Assembly (NCBI GenBank): GCA_029884425.1
Contig: JAOUHV010000003.1
Location: forward strand, 1 to 64,000
From: Gammaproteobacteria bacterium
GTDB taxonomy: Bacteria; Pseudomonadota; Gammaproteobacteria; S012-40
Direction: 5' to 3'
Length of the DNA stretch: 64,000 nt
The position numbers and the translations under genes were made by a program. Below, in pieces: positions 29,203 to 30,905 of this stretch. The stretch's first letter is position 1, and each line of letters starts with the position of its first letter. Below the pieces are notes generated by a model that was given only the letters and a program-made list of their open reading frames with translations, was not told where the DNA came from and searched no databases.

Positions 29203-29403
29203 TCGCTAAAGTTGGCGTTTCGCGAGTTTTTTCCTGGATTCACTTGCCGTTCGGCTGGCGGATTCAGGGGAAATGCTCCATTGCTTTCTCTCCTGCAACA
29301 ATCCGGGCTATATGGTCTGATTTTTCAATTAAACAAATAGGTTGCGTGACGCCTGTCTGCTTGGCGGTTTAGAATGTCGTAGACAGTGTTTGGAGCGAAT
29401 CAC
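29203..29403. other. Intergenic spacer upstream of NifU-like gene
   Basis: About 200 bases without a convincing frame. An imperfect hairpin (CCTGGATTC ... GATTCAGG, about 29234-29270) may end the small peptide transcript. TGTCGTAGACA (29375-29385) is a small palindrome just upstream of the next gene. Confidence 0.3.
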
Positions 29404-29805
29404 GTGACAGGAACAAAACTTCCCCTGCTGCAAGACCTGGTTTCGACCGACCCAGCCCACCAATACACCGAAGACGAACTTGATGCCATTGAGCAAATCG
29501 ATGCGGCGATGGCATTGCGTTTGGCGCGTGCGCAGCATCTGGCGCAGCAAAATCGGCAGGAAGCGCCGTCGGATCAGACCATCGACGAGGCTCAGGTCCG
29601 GTTGGCCATTGATGAAGCCAGAGCCATCCTTGCACAAGATGGCGGTGACCTGGAACTCATTGAAATTCAAGGACGTACCGTTAAGGTTCGCTTAAAGGGG
29701 GCTTGTGTAGGATGCCCCAATGCCACACTGGATCTACGCAATGTAGTGGAGCGGATCATCAAAAGACGCTCACCGGGTGTGCATGAGGTACAAAATACTT
29801 TTTAA
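29404..29805 (+). CDS. NifU C-terminal-domain protein
   Basis: 133 residues. The C-terminal half is a NifU-like scaffold domain with the CVGC motif (GACVGCPNATLDLRNVVERII), which holds or transfers an Fe-S cluster. The N-terminal 55 residues are helical and acidic. GTG 29404 with GGAG about eight bases upstream is the preferred start; GTG 29386 is possible. It precedes the haem-FGE gene by 101 bases, so the two may act together in cofactor handling, but that is inference. Confidence 0.85.
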   Translation: MTGTKLPLLQDLVSTDPAHQYTEDELDAIEQIDAAMALRLARAQHLAQQNRQEAPSDQTIDEAQVRLAIDEARAILAQDGGDLELIEIQGRTVKVRLKGACVGCPNATLDLRNVVERIIKRRSPGVHEVQNTF

Positions 29806-29906: not shown

Positions 29907-30905
29907 ATGAAAAAAAACAATCTTAAACGACGTATCCTGTTGGTTTTGGGGGGATGCCTGATTTCTTTCGCCGCTGCGGCGGTTGGTCAGACACTGGATG
30001 ATTGTGCTCACTGCCATCCGGACTTCAAACACAAGCAAGTGAAATTAACGGCAAAAGACAAGTGCCTGACTTGTCATGGCAGCCTTGAAGCCCACGATAA
30101 AAAGAAAGCCAGTGCCGGAGATCAGGCACGGATAACTGCTTTACGGGATGAACTCAAAGCCGCGCTGAAATACGAGGAGTTTTATTCGCCGTCGCGGTTG
30201 GGGGATGCGCCTAACGAAATGATTCGAATTCCGGCAGGGCAGTTCATTAAGGGCACCAATGACCGCTTGCCGGACGAAGGGCCACAGCATTTGGCTGAAG
30301 TCCGCCAGGATTATTTGATCGATAAATTTGAAGTAACCAACGCACAGTACAAACGTTTTATCGATGAAACCAAGCATCGCTCGCCCAAGCATTTCCAGAA
30401 CCGTACCTATCCCGAAGGCAAGGCCGATCATCCGGTGGTGTTTGTTTCCTGGGATGACGCGAAGGATTACTGTACATGGGCAGGCAAACGCCTTCCCAGC
30501 CAGGAGGAATGGGAAAAAGCCGCGCGCGGCGAAGACGGTCGGACTTATCCCTGGGGCAACGATTTTGACCTGAAGAATGCCAACACCCCACAGCGGTGGG
30601 CGGCTCTGGATCAGCCTGGAGATACGTTGCCCGTGGGGTCATTTGAGGCAGGACGCAGTGTTTATGGGTTGTACGATGTGTCCGGCAATGTCTGGGAGTG
30701 GACCGACTCCTGGTACGATGCCTACCCGGGCAATACCCACATTACGGAAAACTACGGGGAAAAATACAAGGTACTCAAAGGTGGTTCATGGTGGGATTGT
30801 TCGTTCTATAGCTGCGGCATTTCCGCACCGACGTTTAACCGTAGTTTTTTCACCCGCTCGACCAAAAACAACAGCTTTGGTTTTCGTTGCGCCAAAGACG
30901 CCTGA
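29907..30905 (+). CDS. Dihaem c-type domain fused to formylglycine-generating-enzyme domain
   Basis: 332 residues. A signal peptide (to about Ala25) exports it. Two haem-binding motifs follow: CAHCH (33-37) and CLTCH (53-57). Residues 103-330 form an FGE/sulfatase-modifying domain: MIRIPAGQFIKGT, FEVTNAQYKRFI, PVVFVSWDDAKDYC, RLPSQEEWEKAARG, NVWEW (261-265) and GFRCA (325-329). Cys298 and Cys303 have the C-x4-C spacing of the copper-binding catalytic pair of true FGE, which most FGE-like proteins lack. A periplasmic oxidase or maturation role is possible. The substrate is unknown; no sulfatase gene is nearby. Confidence 0.85.
   Translation: MKKNNLKRRILLVLGGCLISFAAAAVGQTLDDCAHCHPDFKHKQVKLTAKDKCLTCHGSLEAHDKKKASAGDQARITALRDELKAALKYEEFYSPSRLGDAPNEMIRIPAGQFIKGTNDRLPDEGPQHLAEVRQDYLIDKFEVTNAQYKRFIDETKHRSPKHFQNRTYPEGKADHPVVFVSWDDAKDYCTWAGKRLPSQEEWEKAARGEDGRTYPWGNDFDLKNANTPQRWAALDQPGDTLPVGSFEAGRSVYGLYDVSGNVWEWTDSWYDAYPGNTHITENYGEKYKVLKGGSWWDCSFYSCGISAPTFNRSFFTRSTKNNSFGFRCAKDA

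Follow-up and report, generated by a model that had tools for sequence, protein, structure and literature searches.

A dihaem protein of the FGE/SUMF1 fold, its partner F2 and their genomic association with OmcE-type nanowire genes

Introduction

The closest described relatives of the protein analyzed here are the SUMF1/FGE enzymes, for which structures are available from human (2aii), T. curvata (6s07) and S. coelicolor (6muj). Cys218 and Cys365 of human FGE form a structural disulfide (PMC4505483). FGE requires a two-electron reductant at each turnover, the physiological identity of which is unknown (PMC12123546). Another member of the fold, PvdO, is a periplasmic FGE-like protein of a siderophore pathway that is needed for an oxidation and whose electron partner is also unknown (PMC6206403). 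Genes for OmcE-type nanowires are widespread, and the accessory proteins that build or connect these filaments are poorly known.

We analyzed a stretch of 64,000 nucleotides of gammaproteobacterial DNA, hereafter called the window, which encodes a dihaem FGE-like protein that we call DH. DH belongs to the same fold family as SUMF1/FGE (profile E value of 1e-44 to human FGE), has the equivalents of the Cys218-Cys365 disulfide and carries a C-x4-C motif in the loop after GGS. It differs from those enzymes in adding a signal peptide and two CxxCH motifs, and also in the position and surroundings of its cysteine pair, as detailed below. Its best sequence match in the PDB is SUMF2/pFGE (1y4j; 1.4e-45), which has a loop of equal length but lacks both the cysteine pair and the haem motifs. 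The occurrence together of SUMF1, with the cysteines, and SUMF2, without them, recalls that of DH and its partner F2. Unlike DH, PvdO has no known CxxCH domain. By its sequence, DH is not a nanowire subunit of the OmcE kind.

In the literature searched, we found no paper tying FGE-like proteins to cytochromes, Gallionella or extracellular electron transfer, and the text of a survey of neutrophilic iron oxidisers mentions neither sulfatase, formylglycine nor SUMF1.

Results

Gene and domain architecture

An earlier note on this DNA had described an exported chain at 29907-30905 that combines two CxxCH motifs, an FGE-sulfatase domain and Cys298-x4-Cys303, and both the open reading frame and the PF03781 match agree with that description. 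The features of the locus are as follows.

29386..29805, + strand: gene 5' of DH, with a NifU C-terminal domain; the gene order is repeated in locus L005, and this gene is not a general DH partner
29907..30905, + strand: DH open reading frame, ATG start, 332 amino acids (PF03781, 6.5e-61; 72 loop-bearing homologues among the fetched loci)
29907..29990, + strand: predicted signal peptide of DH, Sec type, residues 1 to ~28 (KRR, then a hydrophobic stretch ending in AAAAVGQ)
30003..30017, + strand: first haem-attachment motif, CAHCH, Cys33-His37 (from sequence and conservation)
30063..30077, + strand: second haem-attachment motif, CLTCH, Cys53-His57 (from sequence and conservation)
30213..30896, + strand: FGE-sulfatase (SUMF1-like) domain, residues 103-330 (Pfam PF03781)
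30471..30473, + strand: Cys189, human FGE Cys218 by alignment; its expected partner in a structural disulfide is Cys328
30780..30842, + strand: signature loop GGSWWDC298SFYSC303GISAPTFNR (from alignment)
30798-30800, + strand: Cys298, within GGSWWDCSFYSCG
30813-30815, + strand: Cys303, within GGSWWDCSFYSCG
30888..30890, + strand: Cys328, human FGE Cys365 by alignment

The Pfam match to PF03781 scored 206.6 bits against a cut-off of 23.3, and the domain is separated from the CxxCH part by a linker of approximately 45 residues. In the CxxCH part, the Pfam model Cytochrom_c3_2 matched residues 32-69 with 22 bits, below its gathering score of 25. The NCBIfam equivalogs EgtB, SenA, PvdO and GldK all scored far under their cut-offs on DH (99 against 360 for EgtB, 94 against 420 for SenA and 74 against 500 for PvdO). 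DH is exported, probably to the periplasm. Its signal peptide is probably not of the lipoprotein type, as a lipobox-like motif was found in only 2 of 69 family members.

Conservation of the haem motifs and the cysteine pair

In the DNA of the window, the CxxCH pattern occurs at chance frequency (9 occurrences for 8.1 expected), and the case for the haem motifs therefore rests on their conservation. We assessed conservation in a set composed of 80 fetched loci plus the 64-kb window, and a whole-genome search yielded 14 further homologues. The loop GGSWxDC-x4-C was found in 72 proteins of the conservation set. Exactly two CxxCH motifs were present in 69 of them, and the remaining three end at contig edges, whereas none of the FGE-like proteins without the loop in the same set contained any CxxCH. 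Both CxxCH motifs and the cysteine pair were also found in all 14 additional homologues. The two cysteines and the two haem motifs that the earlier note had singled out are thus co-conserved in every complete homologue, across phyla.

The family was found in gamma- and betaproteobacteria, including several Gallionella and Candidatus Tenderia, in groundwater metagenome-assembled genomes of 'Deltaproteobacteria', and in Nitrospirota (Nitrospira and Candidatus Manganitrophus). We aligned the 69 complete members. As these were chosen by the motifs described above, the invariance of the motifs in this alignment is partly by construction; that of Tyr301, Ser306, Asn311, Cys189 and Cys328 is not due to the selection of rows. 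The invariant residues of the loop are Asp297, Cys298, Tyr301, Cys303, Ser306 and Asn311. Asn321, near the cysteine pair, is also invariant across phyla, and Pro308 is invariant in 16 loop-aligned rows and kept in no fewer than 90% of the 69 aligned proteins.

Mature DH proteins have eight cysteines in 67 of the 69 rows, of which four belong to the haem motifs, two match the structural disulfide of FGE and two lie in the loop. Cys298 and Cys303 are thus the only cysteines left once the haem motifs and the FGE-type disulfide are accounted for. Over query residues 28-100 of the same alignment, 24 of the 69 proteins have no His outside CxxCH before the FGE domain, and no extra His is conserved; in those 24 proteins, the axial ligands of the haems must come from elsewhere or be missing. 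Within the FGE/SUMF1 fold, DH is best read as a new subfamily, of which no description was found in the literature searched.

Comparison of the loop with that of FGE

The C-x4-C of DH had been likened in the earlier note to the copper-binding cysteines of FGE. The spacing is indeed correct, but counted from GGS the DH pair is off by one residue. The FGEs compared, one human and 14 gammaproteobacterial, have GGS-x-x-C-x4-C (GGS[FY]LC-x4-C), whereas the pair comes one residue later in DH (GGSWxDC-x4-C). Without gaps, the first FGE cysteine falls on Asp297 of DH, in a column occupied by Cys in 14/14 true FGEs. The gapped HMMER alignment sets the DH pair on human Cys341/Cys346, making the loop alignment ambiguous, and we therefore judged the register from alignments to true FGEs made without gaps or with MAFFT. 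DH has two more residues than FGEs between GGS and the next conserved Arg, and one inserted residue on each side of the pair could restore the copper position.

Other differences surround the loop. An FGE-specific insert, Y.T.AE..VF...WW..P.A.W, has invariant or near-invariant columns in the 14 FGEs and consists mostly of gaps in DH. This insert is presumed to be part of the substrate groove. An Arg common to FGEs, F2 and generic relatives is replaced by Pro308 in DH. In a tree computed without the loop columns, the true FGEs formed one clade (100/100), and DH was placed on the other side with F2 and generic proteins. A clade uniting DH and FGE was not rejected in the same comparison (p-AU 0.384), and both inheritance and separate gain of the cysteine pair are compatible with it.

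We also looked for CxPxR. It is absent from the three PF00884 proteins of the host genome in the stretches examined, at least one of which is incomplete, leaving type I sulfatases unsupported as DH substrates. It is likewise absent from the proteins of the two OmcE-type operons examined. The OmcE-like cytochromes of these two operons have no non-haem cysteine, and for both operons we therefore rejected the idea that DH makes formylglycine on a nanowire cytochrome.

With Asp297 at the column of the first cysteine, the insert missing, Arg replaced by Pro308 and no CxPxR substrate where examined, the proposed equivalence to the copper pair of FGE is not supported, and DH is probably not a genuine formylglycine enzyme. 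The departures in pair register and insert weaken the case for FGE activity, but not the case for a possible redox or metal site at the loop.

The earlier note had also proposed a periplasmic oxidative maturation reaction. COX1-family (PF00115) proteins were above cut-off in 14/14 DH genomes tested from the delta group and Nitrospirota; this Pfam family also takes in NO reductases, and all 14 genomes show long, high-scoring matches. The presence of haem-copper oxidases in these hosts makes O2-dependent chemistry possible. The catalytic interpretation of the note is thus supported in part.

The partner protein F2

In most loci, the next gene after DH codes for a second FGE-like protein, F2, in which GHY replaces the loop cysteines in 57 of 58 cases. 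In a class-wide sample of 369 genomes, the same 28 contain DH (called at E≤1e-60) and F2 (called at E≤1e-50), with none discordant. F2 is thus an obligate partner of DH. The two genes lie apart in the window's genome, where F2 is found at G000:C11:26082-27029 and is approximately 50% identical to the F2 proteins encoded next to DH. That genome has three PF03781 proteins, namely DH, F2 and one encoded in a haem-copper-oxidase-like cluster.

Some other features of these genomes were noted. A membrane-anchored FGE-like protein with neither haem motifs nor the cysteine pair is encoded at G000:C6:65819-66547 (L125:7808-8875), in a cluster that resembles a haem-copper oxidase locus. Many class-level genomes hold 2 to 5 copies of F2, often outnumbering those of DH. 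In most delta operons, a spermidine-synthase-like membrane protein is encoded between DH and F2 (for instance at L048:9023-10597; cluster c7, 11 loci).

Association with OmcE-type nanowire genes

Of the 28 class-level genomes with DH, 27 encode an OmcE-like protein (E≤1e-15), as do 20 of the 341 without DH (Fisher test, 3.6e-27), and the one DH genome with no such match is an 86%-complete assembly. As the genomes are related, such p-values overstate the independent evidence, and the family-level count and the linkage in cis in other phyla are safer supports. At the family level, OmcE-like proteins are present in 11 of 12 DH families (p of roughly 4e-10, with ~181 families assumed). MtrB/PioB, another marker of extracellular electron transfer that served as a control, was found in 4 of the 28 DH genomes and showed no association (p 0.14). 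A general richness in extracellular electron transfer is therefore unsupported as the source of the OmcE association.

OmcE-like proteins were present in 8/8 Nitrospirota and delta genomes examined. In 12 loci from these groups, DH lies within ~6.5 kb of a four-haem OmcE-like cytochrome. Two of these cytochromes were tested and match PDB 7tfs, the structure of the OmcE filament (E values of 5.9e-17 and 8.5e-22). The same 12 loci also encode NHL beta-propellers, a PPIC-type prolyl isomerase, cytochrome c7-like and monohaem cytochromes, and large exported proteins with no Pfam match, which are probably outer-membrane barrels. The genome of Candidatus Manganitrophus, a manganese oxidiser (G391, locus L071), has both DH and OmcE-like genes, with a best OmcE-like E value of 5.1e-65 at ~2.98 Mb.

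DH lies outside the OmcE operon in gamma- and betaproteobacteria, and the link there thus rests on co-occurrence. The window's genome has a comparable OmcE-type operon at G000:C22:33100-44338 (L123, L124), which codes for beta-propellers, a four-haem OmcE-like cytochrome, a PPIase, a probable outer-membrane barrel, three three-haem cytochromes and a second OmcE-like protein. This operon also includes a gene, at L123:15507-17186, for a predicted lipoprotein that has a cupredoxin-like C-H-M motif (YYQCRNHKNMGG) and only a weak At5g54830-like match in Pfam. Nanowires do not need DH, given that 13 class-level genomes, among them genus g7 from the same family as the window, have a strong OmcE match (E≤1e-40) and no DH; this number is 20 at E≤1e-15.

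Discussion

The architecture of DH, the co-conservation of its haem motifs with the cysteine-pair loop, its perfect pairing with F2 and its genomic association with OmcE-type genes are established. The explanation that we tentatively prefer, at somewhat below an even chance, is that DH acts together with F2 as a redox accessory to nanowire systems of the OmcE type, for extracellular electron transfer, in O2-respiring bacteria. Two c haems would be attached to DH and would give electrons to, or take them from, the periplasmic c-type cytochromes of that OmcE-type system. The loop, D-C-x2-Y-x-C-G-x-S-x-P-x2-N, would be a redox or metal site, either a reversible disulfide or a Cu(I) dithiolate. 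With the haems serving it, the loop may mature or protect the nanowire machinery or connect it electrically. A formylglycine product would be unnecessary and is not favoured.

A strong rival, though on balance a doubtful one, has DH simply carry electrons or provide a scaffold for docking; the FGE-like domain would then be structural, Cys298 and Cys303 would form a structural disulfide and the haems alone would do the chemistry. Catalytically empty proteins of the FGE fold do serve as structural parts, such as PorK/GldK, which are among the matches of the DH search. F2 has no cysteine pair, disulfides are favoured in the periplasm, and oxidising conditions lead to a Cys-Cys disulfide even in apo-FGE (PMC12123546). 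However, the invariant polar residues beyond the cysteines, namely Asp297, Tyr301, Ser306, Asn311 and Asn321, are more than a plain disulfide needs. DH could also be a self-reducing, haem-wired copper-thiolate oxidase of the FGE fold, with its own two-electron supply in the form of two c haems, that works extracytoplasmically, alongside an FGE-like partner lacking the cysteines, to modify or assemble OmcE-type nanowires in O2-respiring bacteria. We regard this possibility as improbable. As FGE calls for a two-electron reductant at each turnover, two haems in the DH chain make an attractive electron source.

A further reading, which goes back to the earlier note, is a periplasmic, haem-wired enzyme of the formylglycine type, in which Cu(I) on Cys298/Cys303 would activate O2 and oxidise a peptidyl cysteine, with two electrons given by the two haems at each turnover. 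The C-x4-C in the corresponding loop, the missing identity of FGE's own reductant (PMC12123546) and the haem-copper oxidases in all 14 hosts tested are consistent with it. The off-by-one register, the missing insert, Pro308, the placing of DH outside the FGE clade (even though a joint clade was not rejected, p 0.38) and the results on CxPxR and non-haem cysteines argue against it and make it very improbable. Least probable of all, in our estimate, is a copper accessory in which Cu(I) would sit on Cys298/Cys303 before its transfer to terminal oxidases or to a copper protein of this system, with its redox state set by the haems. The all-thiolate Cu(I) site of FGE does resemble those of copper chaperones (PMC12123546), and the predicted lipoprotein with the cupredoxin-like motif is encoded in the host's OmcE-type operon, but no copper-homeostasis genes were recognised beside DH within the window.

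DH and F2 are concrete candidates for accessory genes of nanowire systems, as their presence follows that of OmcE-type genes through Proteobacteria and Nitrospirota, a genome of Candidatus Manganitrophus among them. If the DH loop does bind copper beside the haems, DH would be a protein of the FGE fold with a built-in electron source, and this would bear on what reduces FGE physiologically. As a pair tied in genomes to OmcE-type genes, DH and F2 may represent a new accessory component of extracellular electron transfer.
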